Positions 5,285-49,077 of a stretch of 64,000 nucleotides of DNA are shown here, one piece after another. The notes under the pieces are model-generated. The model saw nothing but the letters and a program-made list of their open reading frames with translations. It did no database searches and was not told the DNA's origin. The DNA lies in the NCBI RefSeq assembly GCF_016741855.1, contig NZ_JAERRH010000003.1:744001-808000 (forward strand), in the 5' to 3' direction. How positions within the stretch are numbered: the first letter of the stretch is position 1; every line of letters starts with the position of its first letter. The position numbers and the translations under genes are program-made. The stretch is from Streptomyces musisoli (GTDB taxonomy: Bacteria > Actinomycetota > Actinomycetes > Streptomycetales > Streptomycetaceae).

Positions 5285-6340
5285 TCAGGAGGAGGCCCGT
5301 ACCACCAGCTCCGTGGCCAGCACCGCCTGACGGCGTTCCGGCCCCCGTGACGCGGCCGGGCGGCGGTCGGCGATCTCCGTGAGGAGGAGGTCGATCATCG
5401 CGCGGCCCATCTCCTCGATGGGCTGGCGGACGCTGGTGAGCGGCGGGTCCATGTGGCGGGCGATGGCCGAGTCGTCGTACCCGACGAGGGCGACGTCGTC
5501 GGGGATGCGGCGGCCCGCCTCGCGCAGCACCTGCCGGGCGCCGGCCGCCGTCACGTCCGAACCGGCGAACACCGCGTCCAGGTCCGGATGGCGGTCGAGC
5601 AGCGTCGTCATCGCGCGGCGGCCGCCCTCCTCGGTGAAGTCACCCGCCTCGATGAGGAGTTCGTCCACCGGGTGCCCGGCGTCGCGCAGGGCGTCGCGGT
5701 AGCCGTCGACGCGGCGCTGGGCGCCGTAGACGTCCAGCCGGCCGGTGATGTGCGCGATCCGGCGGCGGCCCCGGCCCAGCAGGTGCTCCACCGCCGAGCG
5801 GGCGCCGCCGTAGTTGTCCGAGTCCACCGAGGTGAGCGACTCGGCCGCCGAGCGCGGGCCGCTGATCACGGCCGGGATCTCCAGCTGGGCCAGGAGATCG
5901 GGCAGCGGGTCGTCGGCGTGCACCGAGACCAGCAGGACGCCGTCGACGCGGTGGGCGGCGAGGTACTGGGCCAGGCGCTGCCGTTTCCGGTCGCTGCCGG
6001 CGAAGATCAGCAGCAACTGCATCTCGGTGTCGGAGAGTTCCTGGCCGACCCCGCGCAGCATGTCGGAGAAGTACGGCTCGGCGAAGAACCGGGTCTCCGG
6101 CTCGGGGACGACCAGGGCGATGGCGTCGGTGCGGTTGGCCGCGAGGGCGCGGGCCGCGGTGTTGGGCACGTAGCCCAGCTCGGCGACGGCCGCCTCGACG
6201 GCGGCGCGGGTGGCGTCGCTGACCCGGGGCGAGCCGTTGATCACCCGGGAGACCGTGCCCCGCCCGACCCCGGCCCGGGCGGCGACCTCCTCCAGGGTGG
6301 GCCGCCGGCCGCCCCGGCCTCTCACACCGTTGCCTGCCAT
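5285..6340 (-). CDS. cebR: LacI-family repressor, CebR type
   Basis: A 351-residue regulator. The N-terminal LacI helix-turn-helix (TLEEVAARAGVGRGTVSRVING) is followed by a periplasmic-binding-protein-like sugar-sensing domain (from about residue 72) and the C-terminal DDVALVGYDDS motif. It lies 126 bases downstream of the beta-glucosidase gene, on the same strand as the uptake operon. CebR proteins bind TGGGAGCGCTCCCA-type sites and are released by cellobiose or cello-oligosaccharides. Such sites occur upstream of the binding-protein gene and at the beta-glucosidase start here. Family assignment is secure; the CebR identity rests on context and operators. Confidence 0.85.
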   Translation of the reverse strand: MAGNGVRGRGGRRPTLEEVAARAGVGRGTVSRVINGSPRVSDATRAAVEAAVAELGYVPNTAARALAANRTDAIALVVPEPETRFFAEPYFSDMLRGVGQELSDTEMQLLLIFAGSDRKRQRLAQYLAAHRVDGVLLVSVHADDPLPDLLAQLEIPAVISGPRSAAESLTSVDSDNYGGARSAVEHLLGRGRRRIAHITGRLDVYGAQRRVDGYRDALRDAGHPVDELLIEAGDFTEEGGRRAMTTLLDRHPDLDAVFAGSDVTAAGARQVLREAGRRIPDDVALVGYDDSAIARHMDPPLTSVRQPIEEMGRAMIDLLLTEIADRRPAASRGPERRQAVLATELVVRASS

Positions 6341-6466: not shown

Positions 6467-7909
6467 TCACCGGGGCAGGGCGTTGTTCCCGATCACTCGG
6501 CTGTACCACCGGGCGCTGGCCTTGGGGATGCGGAGTTGGGTGGGGTAGTCGACGTAGACGGCGCCGAAGCGCTTCGAGTAGCCGTAGGACCACTCGAAGT
6601 TGTCCAGCAGCGACCACAGGAAGTAGCCGCGCACATCGGCCCCGTCGGCGATGGCTCGGCGGACCGCGTCCAGGTGGGCGTGCAGATAGGCGATCCGCTG
6701 CGGGTCGTCGACCCGTCCCTCGGGGGAGGCGTAGTCGTCGAAGGCGGCGCCGTTCTCGGTGACCATCAGCGGAAGCCCCGGGTGCGAGGCGGCCAGTCCG
6801 GTCAGCAGCGTGTGCAGCCCGGTCGCGTCGATGGCCCAGTTCATCGCGGTCAGCTCGTCGTTGGCGAGGTGGAAGGCGACGTGTTCGGAGCCGGTCCACG
6901 GGGAGTGGTCGCTCGCGCCGTGGCCGTCGTTCCTGGTGCCGGCTCCTTGGTCGGCGGCCAGGGAGACCACGGTCGGCGAGTAGTAGTTGACGCCGAGCAG
7001 GTCGATGGGCCGGGAGATCTCCGCCAGGTCCCCGTCGCGCACCAGCTCTCCCCAGTCGACCAGGTGCCGGGTGTCGGCCAGCAGGTCCTCGGGGTAGGCG
7101 CCGTCCAGGAGGGGCCCGGTGAAGATCCGGTTGCCGACCGCGTCGATGCGGCGCGCGGCCTCGGCGTCGGCGGGGCTGTCGGTGAGCGGGCGCACCTGGT
7201 GCAGGTTGAGGGTGACGGAGGTCTGCCCGGACGACGGCAAGGCCGCGCGCAGCGCGCCTACGGCCCGGCCGTGGGCCAGGTTGAGGTGGTGCGCGGCCCG
7301 CAGGGTGGCGGCCGGGTCGGTGCGTCCCGGCGCGTGCACGCCGGAACCGTAGCCGAGGAACGCCGAGCACCAGGGTTCGTTGAGGGTGGTCCAGATCCCG
7401 ACCCGGTCGCCGAGGGCGCGGGCGGCGATGCCGGCGTAGTCGGCGAAGCGGTGGGCGGTGTCGCGGTGCGGCCAGCCGCCCGCGTCCTCCAGTTCCTGCG
7501 GCAGGTCCCAGTGGTAGAGGGTGGCGACCGGCGTGATGCCGGCCTCCAGCAGCTCGTCGGTGAGGCGGCGGTAGAAGTCCAGGCCGCGCTCGACGCCGGG
7601 TCCGCGGCCGGTGGGCTGGACCCGCGACCAGGAGATGGAGAACCGGTACGCCTTGAGGCCGAGGTCCTTCATCAGCGCCACGTCGTCGCGGTACCGGTGG
7701 TAGTGGTCGGCGGCGATGTCGCCGGTGTCGCCGTTGCGGACCTTGCCCGGGGTGCGGCTGAAGGTGTCCCAGATGGAGGGGGTGCGGCCGTCCTCGGCGG
7801 CGGCGCCCTCCACCTGGTAGGCGGCGGTGGCCGCGCCCCAGACGAAGCCGGTCGGGAAGGAGGTGTCGGTGTGCGGCTGGGCCGTGGTCTCGGGTCGTAC
7901 GGCGGTCAT
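6467..7909 (-). CDS. bglC: GH1 beta-glucosidase (BglC type)
   Basis: A 480-residue cytoplasmic glycoside hydrolase family 1 enzyme without a signal peptide, expected to split imported cellobiose to glucose. The acid/base Glu178 lies in TLNEPW and the nucleophile Glu385 in VTENGAAF. The GH1 N-terminal signature [14 protein letters not shown] starts at residue 22. It is the last gene of the cebE-cebF-cebG-bglC set, about 270 bases after the second permease gene. A CebR-like half-palindrome (7912-7925) lies at its ribosome binding region, so it is probably controlled separately by CebR. A decayed copy of its 3' end lies at 12.7-13.0 kb. Confidence 0.93.
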
Positions 7910-7911
7910 GG

Positions 7912-7925
7912 TGAAAACGCTCCCA
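7912..7925. promoter_or_regulatory. CebR-like operator at the bglC start
   Basis: On the minus strand the sequence is TGGGAGCGTTTTCA, ending 2 bases before the bglC ATG. It shares TGGGAGCG and the terminal CA with the CebR consensus TGGGAGCGCTCCCA. It overlaps the ribosome binding site, so repressor bound there could block initiation. Confidence 0.55.
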
Positions 7926-8177
7926 GGGGGATGAGAAACGGACGCGGTCCGCAAGCAGGCGCGGAGAGGGGCGCGGTGCGGACGCGGCGGGGACGGACCG
8001 GGTGGCACCCGGTCCGGTACGACCCCGGTGGGCACCCGCTCCGGTACGCCCGCTGCGGGGCGGCCGGAAGGCGGGCGGGCCCGGACCGGGTACGAGAGGG
8101 GGGCCGACAGGAGGGGCGCCGGTCACAGGGCGGACCGGGCCGGACCGGGGTGGCCGGCCCGGCGGCGGTGGACCGGC

Positions 8178-9098
8178 TCAGCCCTTGACCGCGCCCGCCA
8201 TGATCCCTCCGACGATCTGCTTGCCGAAGACGACGAAGACCAGCAGCAGGGGCAGTGTGCTGATCAGCGCTCCGGCCATGACGATGCTCTGGTCGGGGGT
8301 GTAGGAGGCACTGAGCTGGCCGAGCGCCACCTGGATGGTGGGGTCCTCCTGGTTCAGCGCGAGGAACGGCCAGAAGAAGTCGTTCCACGCCTGGACGAAG
8401 GTGAGCATGCCCAGGACCATCATGGCGGGACGGGCCACGGGCAGGACGATGTTCCACACGATGCGTATGTTGCTCGCACCGTCCACCTTGGCCGCCTCGA
8501 TCAGCTCGTACGGCAGGGCCTCCAGCAGGTACTGGCGCATGAAGAAGACACCGAAGGCGCCGACCAGGGTCGGGAAGATCACCGACTCCAGCTTCCCGCC
8601 CCATCCGATGTCCGACATCATCATGAACAGCGGGACGACACTGAGCTGGGGCGGAACCGTCAGCGTGGCGATGACCGCGGTCATCAGCACGCCACGGCCG
8701 CGGAAACGCATCTTGGCGAAGGCGTATCCGGCGAGGGTGCAGAAGAACAGGGTGGCGGCGGTGATGCAGCCCGCCACGATGACGCTGTTGACGATGGCCT
8801 TGCCCAGGTGGGCCTGGTCCCAGGCCGCCTGGAGGTTGCCCCACAGTCTGCCGCCCGGCACGAGCGGCGGCGGGCTGTCCAGGACCCGCTGCTGGTCGTG
8901 CGAGGCGGCCACCAGCGTCCAGTACAGCGGGAAGACCGAACCGAGCCCGACGACGATCAGGGCTGCGTAGGTGAAGGGACCGCCCCTGAGCTGCTGGCCG
9001 GCTCCCAGCCGCAGGCGGGCACGGCCCTTGCGGGGGGCGGTGGGGAGCGGGGCCGGGCCGAGTTCCGGCGCGGTCTTGAGGGGACTGGCAGTGGTCAT
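8178..9098 (-). CDS. cebG: Sugar ABC transporter permease, CebG type
   Basis: A 306-residue inner-membrane permease of the carbohydrate uptake family (MalG-like) with about six transmembrane helices. The cytoplasmic EAA loop is ELIEAAKVDGASNIRIVWNI, which docks the ATPase. It starts 14 bases after the cebF stop, so the two are co-transcribed. No ATPase gene is present in the operon; in Streptomyces the shared MsiK ATPase serves such importers. A basic 40-residue N-terminus precedes TM1. Confidence 0.9.
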   Translation of the reverse strand: MTTASPLKTAPELGPAPLPTAPRKGRARLRLGAGQQLRGGPFTYAALIVVGLGSVFPLYWTLVAASHDQQRVLDSPPPLVPGGRLWGNLQAAWDQAHLGKAIVNSVIVAGCITAATLFFCTLAGYAFAKMRFRGRGVLMTAVIATLTVPPQLSVVPLFMMMSDIGWGGKLESVIFPTLVGAFGVFFMRQYLLEALPYELIEAAKVDGASNIRIVWNIVLPVARPAMMVLGMLTFVQAWNDFFWPFLALNQEDPTIQVALGQLSASYTPDQSIVMAGALISTLPLLLVFVVFGKQIVGGIMAGAVKG

Positions 9099-9112: not shown

Positions 9113-10105
9113 TCAGGCCGCGCTCTTGCGCACGAACCGGCCGACGATCCAGTTGATCAGGGCGATGAGCAGCAGCAGGACGAGCATGGCCCACGCCACG
9201 GCCGCCGCCGGACCCAAGTGGCCCAGCTTCCAGCCGTAGTTGAAGAGGTAGATGCTGAGCGTCTCGTACTGGTGCTCGCTGCCGCCGATCGCGCCGAGGG
9301 TGCCGCCCTGGAGCAGCAGCGGCTCGCCGAACAGCTGCATCGAGCCGATGGTCGAGATGACGATGGTGAACAGGATCGTCGGCCGCAGGGAGGGGACGGT
9401 CACCTTGCGGAACTGCTGCCAGCGCGTCGCCCCGTCGATGGAGGCGGCTTCGTACAGGTCGGTGGGGACCGCCTGCATGGCCGCCAGGTAGATGAGGGCG
9501 TTGTAGCCGGTCCAGCGCCAGATCACGATGACCGAGATGGCGATCTTCGAGGTCCACTCCCCGTTGCCCCAGTCGGTGTCGCCGGCTCCGAAGAAGTGCA
9601 GCACCCAGTTGAGGATGCCGCCGTCGGCACGGAAGACCAGCGCGAAGACCAGGGCGGCCGTGGCCACCGACGTGGCGTACGGGGTGAGGACGACGGTCCG
9701 CCAGAAGGTGCTGGCCCGCAGCTTGTAGTTGAGCAGGTGGGCCAGCCCCAGCGCCACCAGGAGCTGCGGGACGGTGGAGATGACACCGATGACGAAGGTG
9801 TTGAAGACGGCCGTCCAGAACTCGGAGTCCTGGAGGATCCTGGCGAAGTTGTCCCAGCCCACCCACTCGGACTGGTCGAGGCTCGTCATCTCCACCCGGT
9901 GCAGGGCGATCCAGCCGGTGTAGAGGAGCGGGTAGAGCCCGAAGGCACCGAAGATCAGGAAGAAGGGGGCGATGTAGGCGTACGGCGACGCCTTGTCGTC
10001 GAAGCGCCACAGCCGGGTACGCCATGTGCCGCGTCCGTGCGGCGCGGCACCGGTGCCGCCGGGCGGCGGCGTGCAGGCACCCCGGGCGGGGGTTGTCGTT
10101 GCCAC
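9113..10105 (-). CDS. cebF: Sugar ABC transporter permease, CebF type
   Basis: A 330-residue MalF-like permease with six or so membrane helices. Its EAA loop reads YEAASIDGATRWQQFRKVTV. I use the GTG start with AAGGA about 10 bases upstream; the reading frame stays open for 500 bases further, but that part is Pro/Arg-rich and looks non-coding. It lies between cebE (343 bases upstream) and cebG. With cebE it should import cellobiose/cellotriose or a related disaccharide. Confidence 0.9.
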   Translation of the reverse strand: MATTTPARGACTPPPGGTGAAPHGRGTWRTRLWRFDDKASPYAYIAPFFLIFGAFGLYPLLYTGWIALHRVEMTSLDQSEWVGWDNFARILQDSEFWTAVFNTFVIGVISTVPQLLVALGLAHLLNYKLRASTFWRTVVLTPYATSVATAALVFALVFRADGGILNWVLHFFGAGDTDWGNGEWTSKIAISVIVIWRWTGYNALIYLAAMQAVPTDLYEAASIDGATRWQQFRKVTVPSLRPTILFTIVISTIGSMQLFGEPLLLQGGTLGAIGGSEHQYETLSIYLFNYGWKLGHLGPAAAVAWAMLVLLLLIALINWIVGRFVRKSAA

Positions 10106-10448
10106 GAAGGGAGTCCTTCCCTGGAGGTTTCGGCCGGGTGGGGCGGGGGCGCGTCCGGGGACCGGCACCGGTCCGCCGCTCCCCCGGGCGGGCCGGTGCG
10201 GCGGCGGACGGCCCGCGCCGCGGCCTGACGTGCGTGTGAGGCGGAGCCCGGCCGTCGGCTGCCGGGCCCCGCCGGGCGGTCCGGCGGCGGCGCCCCTGCC
10301 GGGGCACCGCTCGTGCCGTCGGACACTCGCCTGCGCGGACCCGTGGCCCGTGCCGCGTACCGGGCGTCGCTCTGCCGGGCACGGCGCGGACGGCGCGCCC
10401 GCGCGGGCGGGGTGCGGTCGGCCGGCGGGCCCCCGCACCCGGGGCCGG

Positions 10449-11768
10449 CTAGCCGAGCGCCTTGTCGATCGATTCGGTCGCGGCCTTCCACGCGTCGTCG
10501 GGCGAGGTGCCGTGCTGCTCCATGTTGTTGATCTGGGTGGAGACCGTGTCCTTGATCGCGGCGTCCTTCGGGCCGAGCACCGCCTCGGGGATGGACTTGG
10601 CCTCCTCGGCGTAGATCTGCCCGATGGGGGCGTCACTGAAGTACGGGAGCTTGGCGTTCTTCACGTCGGCCAGTTCGTAGGCCTTCTTGTTGGACGGGAA
10701 GACGCCGATCGCCTTGAACACCGCGGCCTGCTGCTCGGGAGCGGTCAGCCACTTGACCAGCTCGGAGGCCTCCTTGACGTGCTTGCCGTTCTTGGGAACG
10801 GCCAGGAAGGAGCCGCCCCAGTTGGCCGCGGTCGAGCCGGGGGCGCGGGAGATGTCCCACTTGCCCTTGTAGGCGTCGCCGGAGTTGGTGGAGATCTGGC
10901 CGGCCATCCAGGCGGGGCAGGCCACGGTGGCCACGGTGCCCTTGCGCAGCGCGGCCGTCCAGGCGTCGGTGAACTGGGGCAGGCCCTGGGACAGCTTCTT
11001 GCCGGCGGCCTCGGCGGCCAGGTCCCAGCCCTGCTGCACGGACTGGCTCTCCTTGTACACCGGCTTGCCGTCGGCGTCGTAGTACTGCTGGGCGGAGGAG
11101 CTGACGACCGCGTTGTACATGGCGGACGCGGAGTCCATGAAGTAGGTGCCCGAGGGCGCCTTCTTCTTGTACTGCTCACCGAGTTCGAGGTAGTCCTCCC
11201 AGCCGCCGGCGACGGCCTTGGCGACGGCCTCGCGGTCGGTGGGCAGGCCCGCCTTCTCGAAGAGGTCCTTGCGGTAGCACAGCGACATGGGGCCGATGTC
11301 GGTACCGGCGCCGATCACCGTGCCGTCCTCGGCCGTGGCCTGCTTCTCCTTCCAGGACACCCAGTCGTTCACGTCGATCGTCTTGCCGAGGTCGGCGAAC
11401 TTGCCCGCCTGGGTGTCGACGACCTCCTTGATGCGCCCGACTTCGATGCCCGTGACGTCGCCGAGACCGCTGCCCGTGTTCAGCTGCTGAAGGAGCTTCG
11501 GGTAGTAGTCCTGCTCGTTGGCGGTGGTCTCCTCCTTGACCGTGATGTTCGGGTGCAGTTCGTGGTACTTGGCGAACAGGCCGGCCTCCTTGTAGCCGAA
11601 CTGCCCGAAGTCGGCCACCGTGAGGGTGATGTTCCCGTTGGCGTCCGCGGTGTCCGAGTCGTCGTCGCTGCTGCAGCCGGTCAGCAGCAGTGCGGAGGCC
11701 GTCAGGACCGTCGTGGCCACGGCCGTCGCTCTGCGGCCGTGACCACCGCCGGTGCGGGTGATGCGCAT
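10449..11768 (-). CDS. cebE: Sugar-binding lipoprotein, CebE type
   Basis: A 439-residue family 1 solute-binding lipoprotein. A signal peptide with Arg-rich start ends in the lipobox LLTGCSS at about residues 28-34. An acidic DDDSD linker and an extracellular binding domain follow. AAGGAG lies just upstream of the ATG. It heads the operon and captures the oligosaccharide for CebFG. An operator with one mismatch to the CebR consensus lies about 215 bases upstream. Ligand specificity (cellobiose, cellotriose or another beta-glucoside) is inferred from the linked GH1 enzyme and operators. Confidence 0.9.
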   Translation of the reverse strand: MRITRTGGGHGRRATAVATTVLTASALLLTGCSSDDDSDTADANGNITLTVADFGQFGYKEAGLFAKYHELHPNITVKEETTANEQDYYPKLLQQLNTGSGLGDVTGIEVGRIKEVVDTQAGKFADLGKTIDVNDWVSWKEKQATAEDGTVIGAGTDIGPMSLCYRKDLFEKAGLPTDREAVAKAVAGGWEDYLELGEQYKKKAPSGTYFMDSASAMYNAVVSSSAQQYYDADGKPVYKESQSVQQGWDLAAEAAGKKLSQGLPQFTDAWTAALRKGTVATVACPAWMAGQISTNSGDAYKGKWDISRAPGSTAANWGGSFLAVPKNGKHVKEASELVKWLTAPEQQAAVFKAIGVFPSNKKAYELADVKNAKLPYFSDAPIGQIYAEEAKSIPEAVLGPKDAAIKDTVSTQINNMEQHGTSPDDAWKAATESIDKALG

Positions 11769-12262
11769 TCCACTACTCCTTGTTCCAGTGGGGAACGGGA
11801 CCTCAGGATTCGGACCATCAGGGCTCGGTGGTCCGGACCTGCCCTCTCGGTTCGAGCAGCGGCCAGCCAACAGCACACGGCGTGCGGTGGAAAGGTGCTG
11901 GTCAACGATGTGCCATGCAAGGTAGAGGGGAAGGCCATGGGTGGTTCGATCCAAGCGGGAGAGGGCCCCCGGTCATTCCGTGGGACCGCTCCCACGCGGC
12001 ATGCCGGAAGACTCGTTGGTGGCAGGCCGGGTGTCAAGACTTGAAGACGGCGTTGTTGCGCAAGCGTGTTCAGCGCGTCACGGGAACGTGTCGCACCACA
12101 ACGCACGACCGGCCCGCCGTCCGGCTGTTGCGGACAGCGTCGGGGCAGGTCACCGGCGGGTCAATCCCCGCATCCGGCCAACTGCGCCCCGTCACACGGT
12201 GGTTGCCGCACGCCCGGGGTCAGAATGAGGCACCCGCCCCACGGACCGCCGGAAGGTGAACG
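11769..12262. other. Intergenic region between cebE and the decayed cebR copy
   Basis: Nearly 500 bases without a convincing gene. It contains the cebE leader and operator and an AT-richer patch around 11870-12070 expected to hold the cebE promoter. I see no RNA gene. Confidence 0.5.
11981..11994. promoter_or_regulatory. CebR-like operator upstream of cebE
   Basis: TGGGACCGCTCCCA, a palindrome differing at one base from the CebR site TGGGAGCGCTCCCA. It lies about 215 bases upstream of the cebE ATG and is the likely site through which cellobiose releases the operon. Confidence 0.75.
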
Positions 12263-12640
12263 ATGAGTCCTGCCGAACGGCCGCAGCCGCCCGGGACCGC
12301 GGACGTCCGGCGCCCGGCCCTGAACTCCGTGGCGCCCGCGCCGGCGTGGGCGCGGCACGGTCTCGCGGGTGATCAACGGATCCCCGAAGGTCAGCGACCG
12401 CTCCCGGGCGGCCGCCGAGCGGGCGATCGCGGAAGTCGGCCACGTGCCCGACAGCGCCGCCCGCCCCTGGCGACCCGCCGCACCGACGCGGTGGCGCTGG
12501 TCGTGCCCGACGCCGAGCACCGGCTGTTCTCCGAGCCGTACTTCTCGGGCGTCATCCGGGGCGTGTCCGCCGGACTCACCGCCGTCGGCATGCAGTTGCC
12601 GCCGGTCCTGACGGGGAACGAGCGAGGTGCCGGGTCCCGG
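12263..12640 (+). pseudogene. Decayed LacI/CebR-type regulator gene
   Basis: Translated piecewise in three frames, this strip matches the intact regulator at 5285-6340. RRPALNSVA is in one frame and RAGVG in a second. RGTVSRVINGSPKVSDRSRA through VPDSAAR is in a third, then back to ATRRTDAVALVVPDAEHRLFSEPYFSGVIRG. At least three frameshifts are needed, and homology stops near residue 125 of about 350. A GGAAGG ribosome site still precedes the ATG. It is on the opposite strand to the intact cluster and just upstream of a perfect CebR palindrome and a beta-glucosidase remnant. It appears to be the relic of a second cellobiose locus with its centre deleted. Confidence 0.85.
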
Positions 12641-12649
12641 GGCGCCCCT

Positions 12650-12678
12650 TTCGACATGGGAGCGCTCCCATGCATAAT
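12650..12678 (+). promoter_or_regulatory. Perfect CebR palindrome inside an intact-looking promoter
   Basis: CATGGGAGCGCTCCCATG (12655-12672) is an 18-base perfect palindrome containing the exact CebR consensus at 12657-12670. It fills the 17-base spacer between a -35-like TTCGAC (12650-12655) and a -10-like CATAAT (12673-12678). The promoter faces the beta-glucosidase remnant. It is a better operator than either of those in the intact cluster. Confidence 0.8.
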
Positions 12679-12707
12679 GCGGGCACTCGGCCCCTGGGAG
12701 AACCCTC

Positions 12708-13124
12708 ATGCCCGAACCGATGCCCGAACCGACGTCCGTGGCCTTTCCCGACCCCGACGGCCGCGTCCACGACCGCGAGCGCATCGCCTACCTCCACGGC
12801 CACCTCGCGGCGGTCCGCCGCGCCATCGACGACGGCGCCGACGTCCGCGGCTGCTTCCCGTGGTCCCTGCCGGACGACTTCGAGTGGGCGTACGGCTACG
12901 GCAAGCGGTTCGGGGCGGTGTTCGCGGACTTCGCGACGCTGGAGGGGACGCCGAAGTCGAGCGCGCGGTGGTACGCGGAGGCGGCACGGACGCGGGTGCT
13001 GGCGTCGGCGCCTGCGGGCTGGCCGGGAGGCGCCGGGTCCGGTGCCTGCGGGTTGGCCGAGCGGTGCCGGGTCCGGTGCCTGCGGGTTGGCCGAGCGGTG
13101 CCGGCTCCGGTGCCTGCGGGTTAG
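12708..13124 (+). pseudogene. 3' remnant of a GH1 beta-glucosidase gene
   Basis: Residues 12-95 of this 138-codon frame match the last 85 residues of the intact Bgl[55 protein letters not shown] and KSSARWYAE. Both catalytic glutamates and the rest of the barrel are missing. The frame starts with an ATG about 30 bases downstream of the CebR-operated promoter and runs into a 34-base tandem repeat. It could be translated, but the product cannot be an active glucosidase. Confidence 0.85.
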
Positions 13125-13172
13125 CCGAGCGGTGCCTGTCCGGTGCCTGCGGGTTAGCCGAGCGGTGCCGGT
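13007..13172. repeat. 34-bp tandem repeat, five copies
   Basis: Units beginning GGTGCCTGCGGGTTGGCCGA recur at 13007 (degenerate), 13041, 13075, 13109 and 13142, a period of 34, 34, 34 and 33 bases. The array extends the 3' end of the beta-glucosidase remnant and supplies its stop codon. Confidence 0.85.
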
Positions 13173-13285: not shown

Positions 13286-14770
13286 TCAGTTGTAGGTGCC
13301 GAACGCCTTCGAGAACGCGAACCTGTCCTGGGTGACCGAGCTGCACGTGGCGTCGGCGGTGGGCTTGATGCCGCCCTCGCACTGCTTGTCGCGGGTCGCG
13401 GACCACATGGAGAGCCAGCCGAGCCCCTTGGACTTGGCGAAGTTCACCAGCTGGGTGGCGTCCTCGACCTTGAAGACCTCGGAGGAGACGTCGTTGACGC
13501 CGATCATCGGGGTGACCGCGACCGTCTTCCAGGCGGCGGAGTCCGACAGGCCCAGCACGCTCTTGACCTGGGCCTGGGTGGCCGTCGCGGCCTGCTCGGC
13601 GTAGGTCCCCATGTCGCCGCTGTACGAGGCTCCGTAGTCCATCGCCATGATGTTGACGGTGTTGATCTTCACGCCGTTGGACTTGGCGTCGGCGAGGAGG
13701 TTCACGCCGTCCTGGGTGAGGCCCTCGGGCATCACCGGGAGGGTGTAGGAGACGTCCAGGCCCGGGTGCCCGGCCTGGAGCTTGGCGATGGCCTGGGCGC
13801 GCCGGGTGTTGGCGGCCGTGTTCGGCAGCGCGCCGCCCTCGACGTCGAAGTCGACCTTGGTCAGCTTGAACGCGTCGACCGCCTTGCCGTAGGCCGCCGC
13901 CAGCGCGTCCGCGGAGGAGCAGGTGGTGGCCAGCTCGGAGCCGGAGGCGCCGCCGAAGGAGACGCGCACGTCACCGCCCTTGGCGCGCAGGGCGCCGATC
14001 TGCGCGGCCACGGCGTCGCCGGTGAGGTCCGTGACACCGCCCCACTTCGGGGTGCAGCCGCCGCCGTCGGTGACGAAGGCGAGGTTGTAGGTCTTCACGC
14101 CGGTCGCGTCGGCGGCGCCGAGAAGGTCGAAGGCCGGGTAGAGGGAGGTGTCGACGTAGGGCGCGAAGCCGGCGGAGGCGGTGGTGCCCGTTCCGGTGCC
14201 GGTGCCGCCGGTCTGGGACGGGGTGGGCGTGGGGGTGGCGGTGGGGGTGCTCGTCCTGGTGGGCGTGGGGGTGCCGGTCTTGGTGGGGGCCGGCGTCGGG
14301 GACTGGGGCTCGGTGGGCCGGCCGCTCGGCTCGGGGGTGGCGCCGCCGTCCGCGGAACACTGGGCGTCGTCGATCCGGCAGCCCGTCGGGTCGCCGCTGC
14401 CGCTCACCACGAAGCCGATGGTCACCGACTTGCCGGGGGCGAGGCCCTCGGTGTCCCACTTGGCCGGCTTCACGGTGACGTGCCGGCCGCTGACGCTCGA
14501 CTCGCCGTTCCACAGGGAGCTGAGCGTGGTGCCGGCCGGGAGGTCGAACTCCAGTGTCCAGGTCTTCTCGGCCTGGCCGCTGTTGTTGGTGACGACGTAC
14601 TGGGCGGTGTAGCCGGACGACCAGTCGCTGGTCCTGGTGTAGGCGGCGTTCACGCCGGCCGCGTTGGCGGTGCCGGTGAGCAGGACCGCGCCGCCGCCGA
14701 TCACGGCCGCGGCGACCAGGCCGCCTATCGCCTTGTTCCTGCCACTGATCCTGCGCCGGTGCGTGCTCAT
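13286..14770 (-). CDS. Secreted GH18 chitinase with a CBM2 module
   Basis: A 494-residue modular exoenzyme. A basic twin-Arg-containing N-terminus and hydrophobic segment end in ANAAGV (signal peptide, about residues 1-37). A family 2 carbohydrate-binding module (VNAAYTRTSDWSSGYTA to about residue 135) follows, then a Pro/Thr linker (residues about 150-195) and a GH18 catalytic domain. The catalytic motif is VDFDVEGG, with the acid Glu at the expected place. It should cleave chitin or chitooligomers outside the cell. I prefer the ATG (MSTHRRR); a GTG six codons upstream is an alternative. No clear DasR site was seen upstream. Confidence 0.92.
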   Translation of the reverse strand: MSTHRRRISGRNKAIGGLVAAAVIGGGAVLLTGTANAAGVNAAYTRTSDWSSGYTAQYVVTNNSGQAEKTWTLEFDLPAGTTLSSLWNGESSVSGRHVTVKPAKWDTEGLAPGKSVTIGFVVSGSGDPTGCRIDDAQCSADGGATPEPSGRPTEPQSPTPAPTKTGTPTPTRTSTPTATPTPTPSQTGGTGTGTGTTASAGFAPYVDTSLYPAFDLLGAADATGVKTYNLAFVTDGGGCTPKWGGVTDLTGDAVAAQIGALRAKGGDVRVSFGGASGSELATTCSSADALAAAYGKAVDAFKLTKVDFDVEGGALPNTAANTRRAQAIAKLQAGHPGLDVSYTLPVMPEGLTQDGVNLLADAKSNGVKINTVNIMAMDYGASYSGDMGTYAEQAATATQAQVKSVLGLSDSAAWKTVAVTPMIGVNDVSSEVFKVEDATQLVNFAKSKGLGWLSMWSATRDKQCEGGIKPTADATCSSVTQDRFAFSKAFGTYN

Positions 14771-14901
14771 GCGCGTGCCTGCCTTCACTGCTCACGGGGG
14801 TCACAGGGGTGGTCGGCCCTGTGGGGTGCGGCAGCACGCTAGCGAGCCCGATTCGGACAAATGGCCTGTTCGAGACGGGTGTTGAAGACCTTATGGTGCG
14901 C

Positions 14902-32915: not shown

Positions 32916-33075
32916 GCGCGGCGAAGCCGCGCAAAAACAGAGATGGCGACCCAGTTCCGCGCTTTCCGCGGACATGGATCGCCATCGTCATCGTGCGCCG
33001 CCAGGGACTCGAACCCCGGACCCGCTGATTAAGAGTCAGCTGCTCTAACCAACTGAGCTAGCGGCGCCTGCTGAC
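32840..33075 (-). repeat. Left copy of the tRNA-Lys inverted repeat
   Basis: About 235 bases comprising tRNA-Lys, 8 bases on its 5' side and about 155 bases downstream are repeated in inverse orientation at 48840-49077. I find only three differences by eye, all at the distal end. The stretch between tRNA and array contains GGCGATCCATGTCCGCGG and a GCGCGGCTTCGCCGCGC hairpin. Confidence 0.92.
32994..33067 (-). tRNA. tRNA-Lys (CTT), copy 1
   Basis: A 74-nt cloverleaf. Acceptor GCGCCGC pairs with GCGGCGC, discriminator A. The anticodon loop in CTGACTCTTAATCAG reads CTT. No CCA is encoded. It is identical to copies at 43070 and 48848. The 3' end of the upstream same-strand gene runs into its first bases. 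Confidence 0.97.
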
Positions 33076-43069: not shown

Positions 43070-43143
43070 GCGCCGCTAGCTCAGTTGGTTAGAGCAGCTG
43101 ACTCTTAATCAGCGGGTCCGGGGTTCGAGTCCCTGGCGGCGCA
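43070..43143 (+). tRNA. tRNA-Lys (CTT), copy 2
   Basis: Identical in its 74 bases to the copies at 32994-33067 and 48848-48921. Acceptor GCGCCGC/GCGGCGC, anticodon CTT. Flanks differ from the other two copies, so it is not part of the inverted repeat. A direct repeat GAGGGGCCCTTCG follows at about 43149-43182 and can fold as a terminator. Confidence 0.97.
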
Positions 43144-44802
43144 CACGGATGAGGGGCCCTTCGCGGAAGCGAGGGGCCCTTCGACGTCTTCCGCGGTCAG
43201 CCTCCGGTACGACTCCTCACCCGGCGGCCGCCACCACACCGGGTCCGTGCACCCGAACCCTTCCCGCCGCAGCCGCGCCCGCTCGATCTTGTTGGTCGCC
43301 GTCACCGGCATCCGCTCCACCACCCGCACGAACCGGGGTGCCATCTTGGTCCCGAGGTCCGGCTGGTTCCGCAGGAACGCCGCGAACCCGGCCGGGTCGA
43401 AGCTCCCGGCGACGGTCGCCATGACCTGGTCGCCGGTGACCGGATCCGGCACCCCGTACACGGCGACGGCGTCCGCGCCCTCGTACCGGGCGACGATGTT
43501 CTCGATCACCGCGGCGGCCAGGTTCTCCCCGTCGACACGGATGCGGTCGTCCGTACGGCCCGCGAAGTAGAGGTAGCCCTGGGCGTCGCGGTAGAAGAGA
43601 TCGCCCGTCCAGTACGCCCCCGCCCGGCGCCGTTCCGCCTCGGCGGCCGGGTTGCGCCAGTAGCCCTCGAAGGGGTTCGGGGCACGGTTGACCAGCTCGC
43701 CTATCGCCTCGTCCCCGTTCAGCAGCCGCCCGGAGCCGTCGAAGCGGGCCGGCGGGCACTCCCGTCCGGTGGCCGGGTCCAGCACCACCAGGCCGGGCCC
43801 GGCCGGACCCACCGCGCCCGCCGGGGTCCCCGGTGTCCACTGGATCGCCGCCCCGCCCTCGGAGGAGCCGTACCCCTCCACCAGCCGCACTCCGAAGCGC
43901 CGCTCGAAGGCGGCCGCGTCGACCGCGCCCGCCTCCGTCCCGAAGCCGAGCCGCAGCGGATTGTCCCGGTCGTCGGGTTTCGGCTCGGTGGCCAGGACGT
44001 ACTGGACGGCCCGGCCGACATAGGTGAAGTAGGTCGCGCCGTAGCGGCGCACGTCGGGCAGGAAGCCGGAGGCGGAGAAGCGCCGGCGCAGCGCCACCCC
44101 GGCTCCGGCGGCCAGCGCGGGAGCCCAGTCCGCGATCACGGCGTTGCCGTGGAACAGCGGCATGCAGATGTAGTGCACGTCGTCCGCGCCCACCCCGAAC
44201 CGCCGGACCAGGGCCCGGCCGGCCGCCGTCAGCCGGCCCTGGGAGCAGAGCGCGGCCTTCGGGGCGCCGGTGGAGCCGGAGGTGAAGTAGAGCAGCAGCC
44301 GGTCGGCCGGGGCCGCCCGGGACTGATCGGGCACGGCACCGCGGTAGGGGGCGAGGAGGGCGGCGTACTCCGGGGTGTCCGTGACGAGCAGCCGCACTCC
44401 CCCGCGTCCGGCTCCGCCCGCGCGGGGCGCCCCCTGCGCCAGGCCGAGCCCGGCCAGCAGCGGCAGGTGGGCCCGCTCGGTGACCAGCAGCGGGCACTCG
44501 GTGTGGCGGATGTCCCGGGCCAGCTCGGAGCCGCGCCGGGTGGGGTTGACGCCGGCGACGGCCGCCCCGGCGAGGGCCGCGGCACCCAGCCAGAGCGGGA
44601 ACTCCTCGGTGTTGTCGAGCAGCACCCCGACGTGCGGTACGGCACCGGGTGGGAGCAGGTCGGCCAGCAGCGCGGCGCGGGCGGCGGCGCCCGCGGCCAC
44701 CTCGTGGTGGGTCAGCACCCGGTCCTCGCACCACAGTCCCGGCCGGTGGTCCCCCCACCGCGCCGCCACCAGCCCGGCGACCGTGCCCGTCGTGGCATCC
44801 AT
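43105..44802 (-). CDS. Acyl-CoA synthetase (AMP-binding, FadD/FATP type)
   Basis: A 565-residue ANL-superfamily ligase. The phosphate loop is YFTSGSTGAPKAAL, A5 GYGSSEGGAAI and A7 YWTGDLFYRDAQGYLYFAGRTDD (split). The catalytic Lys is in TNKIERARLRREG. It activates a fatty or carboxylic acid as acyl-AMP and then acyl-CoA; context gives no substrate. The last 13 residues (VCAARDSNPGPAD) are the antisense of tRNA-Lys copy 2, so the stop lies inside that tRNA on the opposite strand. Confidence 0.87.
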   Translation of the reverse strand: MDATTGTVAGLVAARWGDHRPGLWCEDRVLTHHEVAAGAAARAALLADLLPPGAVPHVGVLLDNTEEFPLWLGAAALAGAAVAGVNPTRRGSELARDIRHTECPLLVTERAHLPLLAGLGLAQGAPRAGGAGRGGVRLLVTDTPEYAALLAPYRGAVPDQSRAAPADRLLLYFTSGSTGAPKAALCSQGRLTAAGRALVRRFGVGADDVHYICMPLFHGNAVIADWAPALAAGAGVALRRRFSASGFLPDVRRYGATYFTYVGRAVQYVLATEPKPDDRDNPLRLGFGTEAGAVDAAAFERRFGVRLVEGYGSSEGGAAIQWTPGTPAGAVGPAGPGLVVLDPATGRECPPARFDGSGRLLNGDEAIGELVNRAPNPFEGYWRNPAAEAERRRAGAYWTGDLFYRDAQGYLYFAGRTDDRIRVDGENLAAAVIENIVARYEGADAVAVYGVPDPVTGDQVMATVAGSFDPAGFAAFLRNQPDLGTKMAPRFVRVVERMPVTATNKIERARLRREGFGCTDPVWWRPPGEESYRRLTAEDVEGPLASAKGPSSVCAARDSNPGPAD

Positions 44803-48839: not shown

Positions 48840-49077
48840 GTCAGCAGGCGCCGCTAGCTCAGTTGGTTAGAGCAGCTGACTCTTAATCAGCGGGTCCGGG
48901 GTTCGAGTCCCTGGCGGCGCACGATGACGATGGCGATCCATGTCCGCGGAAAGCGCGGAACTGGGTCGCCATCTCTGTTTTTGCGCGGCTTCGCCGCGCG
49001 TGGTGGGGGCTTCGCCACCCACACCCCCATCGGGTCGGCACGCTGGGCGTTGGCCGGGAAGGGGCCGGGGTTTCGCC
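48840..49077 (+). repeat. Right copy of the tRNA-Lys inverted repeat
   Basis: It begins GTCAGCAGGCGCCGCTAG and is the inverse of 32840-33075. It contains tRNA-Lys copy 3 and the same downstream stretch (GGCGATCCATGTCCGCGG, then the GCGCGGCTTCGCCGCGC hairpin). Confidence 0.92.
48848..48921 (+). tRNA. tRNA-Lys (CTT), copy 3
   Basis: A 74-nt cloverleaf identical to the other two. Acceptor GCGCCGC/GCGGCGC, discriminator A, anticodon CTT, no CCA encoded. It is inside the right-hand inverted repeat. Confidence 0.97.

Follow-up and report, generated by a model that had tools for sequence, protein, structure and literature searches.

Remnants of a second repressor and a second glucosidase gene point to a probable module exchange at the ceb locus of Streptomyces

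Results

Genes and remnants at the ceb locus

The window, i.e., the whole analyzed stretch of 64,000 nucleotides of Streptomyces musisoli DNA, contains an intact set of ceb genes and, next to it, the remnants of a repressor gene and of a glucosidase gene (Table 1). The intact genes are encoded on the minus strand, and from 11954 down to 5285 they have the order cebEFG-bglC-cebR, which is that of the gris type. The remnants on the plus strand are followed by the gene of a secreted CBM2 protein. Pfam gave CBM_2 only for its product, and no GH family, GH18 included, was found at E 0.001. Elsewhere in the window three tRNA-Lys(CTT) genes are located within 16 kb (32993-33067, 43070-43144 and 48848-48922, one of them on the other strand), which are possible marks of integrated elements.

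Table 1. Features of the ceb locus, with positions in the window and the basis of each assignment.
Feature	Position	Strand	Basis
cebR_a, intact gene of a LacI-family CebR, last gene of the cluster	5285-6340	-	Pfam LacI and periplasmic-binding-like domains
bglC_a, intact GH1 beta-glucosidase gene of the putative incoming module	6467-8035	-	TIGR03356 BGL above cut-off; groups with stand-alone and gris-like loci
cebG_a, permease gene of the putative incoming module, start chosen by hand	8178-9098	-	tblastn, 85-96% in hybrid and stand-alone loci
cebF_a, transporter permease gene, 5' limit approximate	9113-10252	-	tblastn
cebE_a, cello-oligosaccharide-binding protein gene of the putative incoming type, ORF start as listed	10449-11954	-	CebE comparison
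CebR-type box of the intact operon, TGGGACCGCTCCCA, one asymmetric mismatch	11981-11994		box scan
cebR_b remnant from the start codon on, ~120 codons with three one-base deletions	12263-12621	+	alignment to intact relatives
Junction of deletion 1, breakpoints approximate	12622-12643	+	net 806 bp lost relative to S. flaveolus
Retained bglC_c promoter, TCGACA - 16 - CATAAT	12651-12678	+	promoter scan; -10 conserved in relatives
18-base perfect palindrome CATGGGAGCGCTCCCATG, ancestral bglC_c operator, with a perfect CebR box inside (12657-12670)	12655-12672		
Degenerate second CebR box over the bglC_c start codon, four mismatches	12695-12708		
bglC_c remnant, first codons (12-bp duplication) fused in frame to the last ~85 codons; tail reads into repeats	12708-13124	+	alignment, Pfam
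GC-rich tandem array of a 34-bp unit, 4.9 copies, directly downstream of the GH1 homology	13006-13171		repeat search
Gene of a secreted protein with CBM2, syntenic flank, adjacent to ceb in most hybrids in view	13286-14788	-	Pfam CBM_2

An earlier note on this DNA had reported a frame-shifted CebR-like gene and the C-terminal piece of a GH1 enzyme, and both were confirmed. DNA alignments to intact cebR_b genes gave 87% for S. flaveolus (12263-12621) and 91% for S. echinatus (12297-12615), each with three gaps, and each gap is one base that is absent from the window. On top of these frameshifts the 3' two thirds of the gene are deleted, and the distance from the start codon to the operator is 394 in the window versus 1200 in S. 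flaveolus. The product of a whole relative, the intact cebR_b of locus L021, is a LacI-family protein (Pfam LacI, 2.6e-16; Peripla_BP_3, 5.6e-38). CebR_a and intact CebR_b have 20 identical residues across the recognition helix, and thus they probably read the same box. With the CebR_b gene broken, CebR_a is the sole repressor of this pair left in the window. A tandem duplication of the intact cluster was rejected as the source of the relic, because the remnant DNA is only 75% identical to cebR_a and the clade of cebR_a does not include the whole relatives of the remnant.

In the ORF of the bglC_c remnant, Pfam recognized positions 371-450 of the 453 positions of Glyco_hydro_1 (E 9.3e-24). The distance from the start codon to the PDPDGR motif is 39 in the window versus 1149 in S. 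flaveolus, i.e., a net 1110 bp (370 codons) were lost and, thus, the reading frame was kept. The regions of an intact relative that contain the NEP and TENG motifs, which we take to be the catalytic regions of GH1, are deleted, and a full-length GH1 fold with both catalytic glutamates is therefore absent. Judged from its sequence, the bglC_c piece is a remnant and no longer a member of the GH1 family. The 12-bp duplication and the 34-bp array, which was found in none of the four aligned relatives, are further signs of decay.

The genome is a draft of 147 contigs, so frameshifts and gaps might be suspected to be assembly artefacts. This is hardly credible here, because one kilobase has two large and three single-base deletions as well as a tandem array, with whole genes on either side, and the site is deep inside a 979-kb contig.

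Two layouts of the ceb locus in Streptomyces

A DNA search of 61 genomes, which gave some match in 59, mostly to one or the other gene, was the route to relatives with whole genes. The tblastn maps revealed two layouts. In the canonical layout cebR is divergent from cebE-cebF-cebG-bglC, while in the hybrid layout one strand has cebR_a, bglC_a and cebGFE_a and the opposite strand, next to them, has cebR_b and bglC_c. The locus in the window is of the hybrid layout, with cebR_b and bglC_c broken. The relic had been regarded as a second cellobiose locus; instead, relic and intact cluster form one hybrid locus, as in at least 36 other Streptomyces loci.

These hybrids were collected in two ways. 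A scan with intact cebR_b, in which the best 80 of 264 loci were analyzed, yielded 28 hybrids (L038-L062, L064, L067 and L079). In 24 of them cebR_a is seen, three (L042, L049, L052) are cut by contig ends, and L060 is rearranged. An intact cebR_b query favours intact copies, and scans with the relic DNA are less biased. At E up to 1e-60 the latter matched 15 of 391 and 15 of 393 other genomes; their union of 26 genomes comprised 24 hybrids, S. adustus with a stand-alone module, and one other genus. After removal of exact-match duplicates the second set added 8 loci, giving the minimum of 36 hybrids besides the window. L063, a 5.4-kb second contig of S. spiralis, was part of the hybrid list for trees and boxes and was excluded from all hybrid counts. 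It carries another cebE_a|cebR_b piece, the box of which has a different form (TGGGAACGATCCCA). The rearranged L060 belongs to S. mexicanus, and no cebF or cebG was found in it.

In the other hybrids cebR_b is full length throughout, in 28 of 28 loci of the cebR_b scan (no stops) and in 20 of 20 of the second set, i.e., in 36 distinct loci. Of these 36, 33 have a full-length bglC_c as well. Of the exceptions, S. echinatus has codons 395-475 only and its promoter is gone, in the hybrid of strain SID486 no bglC_c was found, and in genome G573 the promoter and the first 64 codons are gone. Including the window, bglC_c is damaged or absent in 4 of 37 hybrid loci, and cebR_b is broken in the window alone. 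A search of relatives for an intact version, which the earlier note had suggested, thus found both genes whole and confirmed that the copy in the window is the broken one. Both bglC genes of G573 (L167, 12576-13840 and 5935-7167) look damaged, as its bglC_a is without codons 94-152 (in frame); the assembly could be the cause.

Of all rows, that of S. echinatus was closest to the window in the trees of cebE and cebR_a, and in the bglC_a tree the two were sisters. Its bglC_c remnant and the relic in the window have a GCF change in common, and thus the decay may predate their split. At the bglC_c site of S. echinatus neither box nor promoter is retained.

The canonical sample consisted of ten loci (L025-L034) that were picked among the better hits and not at random. 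A CBM2 gene and a two-component pair flank L025-L027; some or none of these genes are in view in L028-L034. Either flank is in view in 30 of the 36 other hybrids (23 from the cebR_b scan, 7 added). L046, L052 and L159 are without these genes despite sufficient room, showing that the neighbourhood differs among hybrids.

Operators and promoter

The CebR consensus is given as TGGGAGCGCTCCCA in the available text of PMC4898821 and PMC5332605; that of PMC9953190 prints TGGGACGCGTCCCA, which is probably a slip. A perfect copy of this 14-bp palindrome is present in the window at a ceb promoter, inside the 18-base perfect palindrome that had already been noticed. Four boxes with at most two mismatches were found in the window versus 0.62 expected, and four were reached in 0 of 100 shuffles. 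The whole genome has four perfect boxes and four with one mismatch, compared to none for a reversed control pattern. By eye, two of the other three perfect boxes are located beside ORFs resembling secreted CBM- or cellulase-type proteins, and the remaining one is within or beside an ORF of another kind.

The promoter scan gave 10 of 12 hexamer matches (mean 0.0 in 50 shuffles). The palindrome had been placed exactly into a 17-base spacer. Promoter-like hexamers are indeed present, but the better -35 (TCGACA) gives a spacer of 16 and is overlapped by the palindrome by two bases, and 17 bases are possible only with the weaker -35 TTCGAC. The -10 CATAAT precedes bglC_c in 22 of 26 hybrids of the cebR_b scan and in 17 of 19 of the second set (12 loci in common). 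No conservation of the -35 across relatives was seen by eye, i.e., only the -10 is conserved. A perfect box lies upstream of full-length bglC_c in all 26 and all 19 hybrids, again with 12 in common and thus in 33 distinct loci. All 33 loci that keep bglC_c have this operator as the normal one; in the perfect palindrome the window retains the ancestral operator of bglC_c.

The second box, over the start codon, has the form TGGGAGCGATTCCA in 14 of 26 hybrids of the cebR_b scan. A box of the start-codon type, TGGGAGCGCTTCCA, is present in 8 of the 10 canonical loci. It is at the start codon of bglC in seven, while L030 and L031 have it at an offset, L030 with one further mismatch. A perfect box was found at canonical bglC in none of the ten loci, and L034 is without any box.

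The box of cebE_a, TGGGAGCGGTCCCA, is identical in the window and in 28 of 28 hybrids of the cebR_b scan (best 80 of 264 loci). The statement that the intact cluster has only imperfect operators is therefore true at up to two mismatches, but the imperfect form is conserved and no sign of decay, and neither operator of the window is unusual. For the same reason the idea that the relic took the good operator from the intact cluster was rejected.

Constraint on the relic

The cebR_b remnant beside the operator has diverged by ~9% from S. echinatus. By our own arithmetic, the chance that 14 bases stay unchanged is then ~0.27-0.52, with all or half of the changes on the window branch, so the unchanged box is no sign of selection. 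As far as these sequences tell, the persistence of the palindrome requires no selection.

For the GH1 C-terminus of the relic (74 codons) dN/dS was 0.21-0.45 against 11 intact hybrids and 0.41-0.45 against L038-L041, versus 0.07-0.25 in 15 pairs of intact hybrids. Against three canonical loci it was 0.66-0.82, compared to 0.18-0.23 in four pairs of intact hybrids and canonical loci. Rows of L045, in which the wrong paralogue (bglC_a) had been compared, were left out of these values. Because the ranges with the hybrids overlap slightly, a relaxed constraint on the GH1 remnant is likely, short of proof. Two changes to proline were found within a conserved motif.

The relic might have been retained for a function, with the operator as a CebR sink or with the 138-codon ORF as the source of a useful small protein under cellobiose control. 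Operator and -10 are intact, the box is among only four perfect ones in the genome, the ORF is in frame after the old start region, and the GH1 fragment is still recognized by Pfam. Yet the operator would be expected to survive by chance, the box over the start codon has decayed, dN/dS is raised though overlapping, and the ORF has the two prolines and a tail of tandem repeats. S. echinatus, moreover, keeps neither box nor promoter. Retention for a function is thus improbable, and the fragment is presumably without one. The orphan promoter, if working, may be repressed by CebR_a and would govern a frame without catalytic residues.

Ancestry of the pieces

Quick trees (LG+G4, SH-aLRT only) were calculated from hand-chosen rows, i.e., 62 of 116 for cebR, 59 of 91 for bglC and 47 of 73 for cebE. 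The cebR_a genes of hybrids clustered with canonical cebR (SH-aLRT 100, 24 rows), and hybrid bglC_c clustered with canonical bglC (100, 23 rows). The cebE_a genes of hybrids, stand-alone modules and gris-like loci grouped together (100, 24 rows), while cebR_b, together with repressors of Kitasatospora, Wenjunlia and Streptacidiphilus, formed a clade of its own (99). Judging by these groups, bglC_c and cebR_a are from the common cebR|cebEFG-bglC layout, and cebR_b belongs with cebEFG_a-bglC_a. As the earlier note had it, the two pieces of the relic are of a CebR-type repressor and of bglC type, with a perfect CebR box in a retained promoter; they differ in ancestry.

This bears on the proposal that the relic is a second, separate cellobiose locus in which one internal deletion fused the start of a cebR with the end of a bglC. 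The description is right about the two pieces and about their order. Its single-deletion form is refuted, however, by the promoter, operator and start codon of bglC, which are in place between the pieces and are flanked by two deletions. In addition, the whole relatives of the two pieces fall into different ceb lineages, and the arrangement is common to at least 36 other loci. The proposal as a whole is very improbable.

The five genes cebR_b, cebEFG_a and bglC_a were also found as a stand-alone module, on plasmid NZ_CP109476.1, in S. adustus and in strain RB17. Its proteins have 77-92% identity to the window (cebR_b compared to the S. flaveolus copy). It differs from the window by the absence of cebR_a and bglC_c beside it and by a cebE box of another form with one to two mismatches. 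S. adustus (G649) has, on contigs other than that of the module, a canonical cebE (87%) and bglC (87%). No canonical-type cebE was found in the hybrid genomes G000, G016 and G020, where the best match was cebE_a itself (50-52%) and others reached at most 36%. The outgroup loci L083, L087, L090 and L109 have a single divergent canonical layout. The module on its own, hybrids without canonical cebE and the divergent outgroup layout support a replacement of cebEFG. At the left junction, hybrids retain, by eye, just a short gene-adjacent stretch of the canonical region upstream of cebR_a. A plasmid search matched 47 records, none over 80% of the query, and H2 and H4 were inspected. NZ_CP109476.1 is a linear Streptomyces plasmid with a transposase gene (L036, 2434-2739) ~0.7 kb past the end of the module's bglC.

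In the trees of cebE and cebR_b the stand-alone modules fall within the hybrids, and those in hand may thus derive from a hybrid locus instead of being the donor. In the cebR_a and bglC_c trees hybrid and canonical rows are mixed, and the inner branches have weak support. The bglC of the four outgroup loci is of the bglC_a lineage (74-77%), which means that bglC_c is "resident" only relative to nearer Streptomyces and that glucosidases, too, have changed hands.

Alternatively, hybrids could have arisen by differential loss and inversion from two adjacent ceb systems in an old ancestor. The nesting of the modules, the occurrence of hybrids in many species of the genus and the bglC_a-like glucosidase of the outgroup would fit. 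We nevertheless regard this origin as unlikely, because the module is present on a plasmid and, in S. adustus, apart from the canonical genes, and because the outgroup loci have their single divergent layout.

The gris-like loci have cebEFG_a but another left junction, so a further exchange is needed for them. No remnants of cebR_b or bglC_c were found beside cebE_a in four of four such loci. Their order as an end state of hybrids after loss of both extra genes was set aside. A separate exchange was assumed, because upstream of cebR both L112 and L113 have retained a perfect box and sequence of the canonical kind, which are absent in hybrids.

Comparison with known ceb clusters

For S. scabiei, with cebR-cebEFG-bglC, the consulted sections of PMC9953190 and PMC5332605 place a CebR box upstream of cebE, and those of PMC5332605 a further one at the start of bglC, at -13. 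L028 and L030-L032 have this canonical layout. They were taken as the scab type because the CebE of L032, the one member tested, scored 716 bits to the structure 8BFY (S. scabiei CebE according to the part of PMC10714786 at hand), versus 417 for L025 and 381 for the window. The window is not of this type, since its cebEFG genes are of another lineage and in another order. Its cebR_a and the whole relatives of its bglC_c group with the scab type, but the bglC of canonical type survives in the window only as a relic. Between the two canonical groups CebE identity was 47-54%. The CebE proteins of three hybrids, that of the window among them, were 44-51% identical to either group, and the CebE of the window itself reached 44-50%. 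By contrast, the cebR_a of these canonical loci was 85-93% identical to that of the window, and their bglC_c 83-88% to that of L025.

A similar pattern was seen between canonical loci. L028, L030, L031 and L032 versus L025, L026, L027, L029 and L033 have regulators and glucosidases that are 83-93% alike to one reference. Their transporter proteins are just 48-66% alike, a pattern of transporter-only exchange.

The intact cluster of the window resembles the gris type in that cebR is its last gene, as in S. griseus (PMC9953190), and all of its genes are on one strand. The type was represented by gris-like loci such as L112 of S. atroolivaceus; the window CebE was 74-79% identical to that of L101, L112 and L113. 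In contrast to the window, four gris-like loci are without cebR_b and bglC_c beside cebE_a, and L112 and L113 have their perfect box upstream of cebR.

The cebEFG2-bcpE1 genes of S. scabiei are a second ceb system in one genome, at a separate locus and with the predicted operator TGGGAACGTTCCCA (PMC9953190, available sections), whereas the window has one fused locus with boxes of the TGGGAGCGCTCCCA type. The scab, reti and gris clusters are called non-orthologous in the same sections. Three main cluster types and xenologs are described in the available parts of PMC9953190, PMC5332605, PMC10974276, PMC10714786, PMC4898821 and PMC3377646, and no description of a hybrid ceb locus was found in these parts. 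Comparison of the loci suggests that several ceb lineages use one chromosomal address.

Discussion

The reading that we favour, with a probability of about 0.8, is a module swap, in which a module of the form cebR_b|cebEFG-bglC took over from the resident cebEFG and the surplus repressor and glucosidase are now being lost. The order and direction of events are our reconstruction. The ancestral state would have been cebR_a divergent from cebEFG-bglC_c, often followed by the CBM2 gene and the two-component pair. A self-contained module, with cebR_b divergent from cebEFG_a-bglC_a, would have inserted between the resident cebR_a and bglC_c and displaced cebEFG. The outcome would be a locus with two GH1 beta-glucosidases and a pair of repressors that share their recognition helix, and most descendants in hand would have retained all four genes. 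In the window strain the surplus pair would then have been broken, cebR_b by frameshifts and a deletion and bglC_c by an in-frame deletion. The palindrome would be the old bglC_c operator, stranded with its promoter between the two deletions. Cellobiose control would presumably be left to CebR_a at the conserved box of the cebE_a operon.

Taken on its own, the relic is an ordinary pseudogene pair with a left-over operator. It is of value as a pointer to a ceb locus, present in many Streptomyces, that combines two cello-oligosaccharide systems and contains two CebR-type repressors. We consider it rather probable that the Streptomyces ceb locus is a standing site of exchange, at which transporters that are ~50% alike are swapped between conserved cebR and bglC genes, often within the same flanks, so that several "non-orthologous" types share one address. 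Some exchanges would leave two CebRs for the same operator and two glucosidases, after which bglC_c would decay repeatedly (4 of 37). The window, the one locus in hand that lost the second repressor too, would represent a natural one-repressor state. Hybrid loci would thus be a simple explanation for the "non-orthologous" ceb clusters of different species, and they offer natural comparisons of strains with one or two repressors and one or two glucosidases, which may reveal whether repressors of the same operator divide labour.
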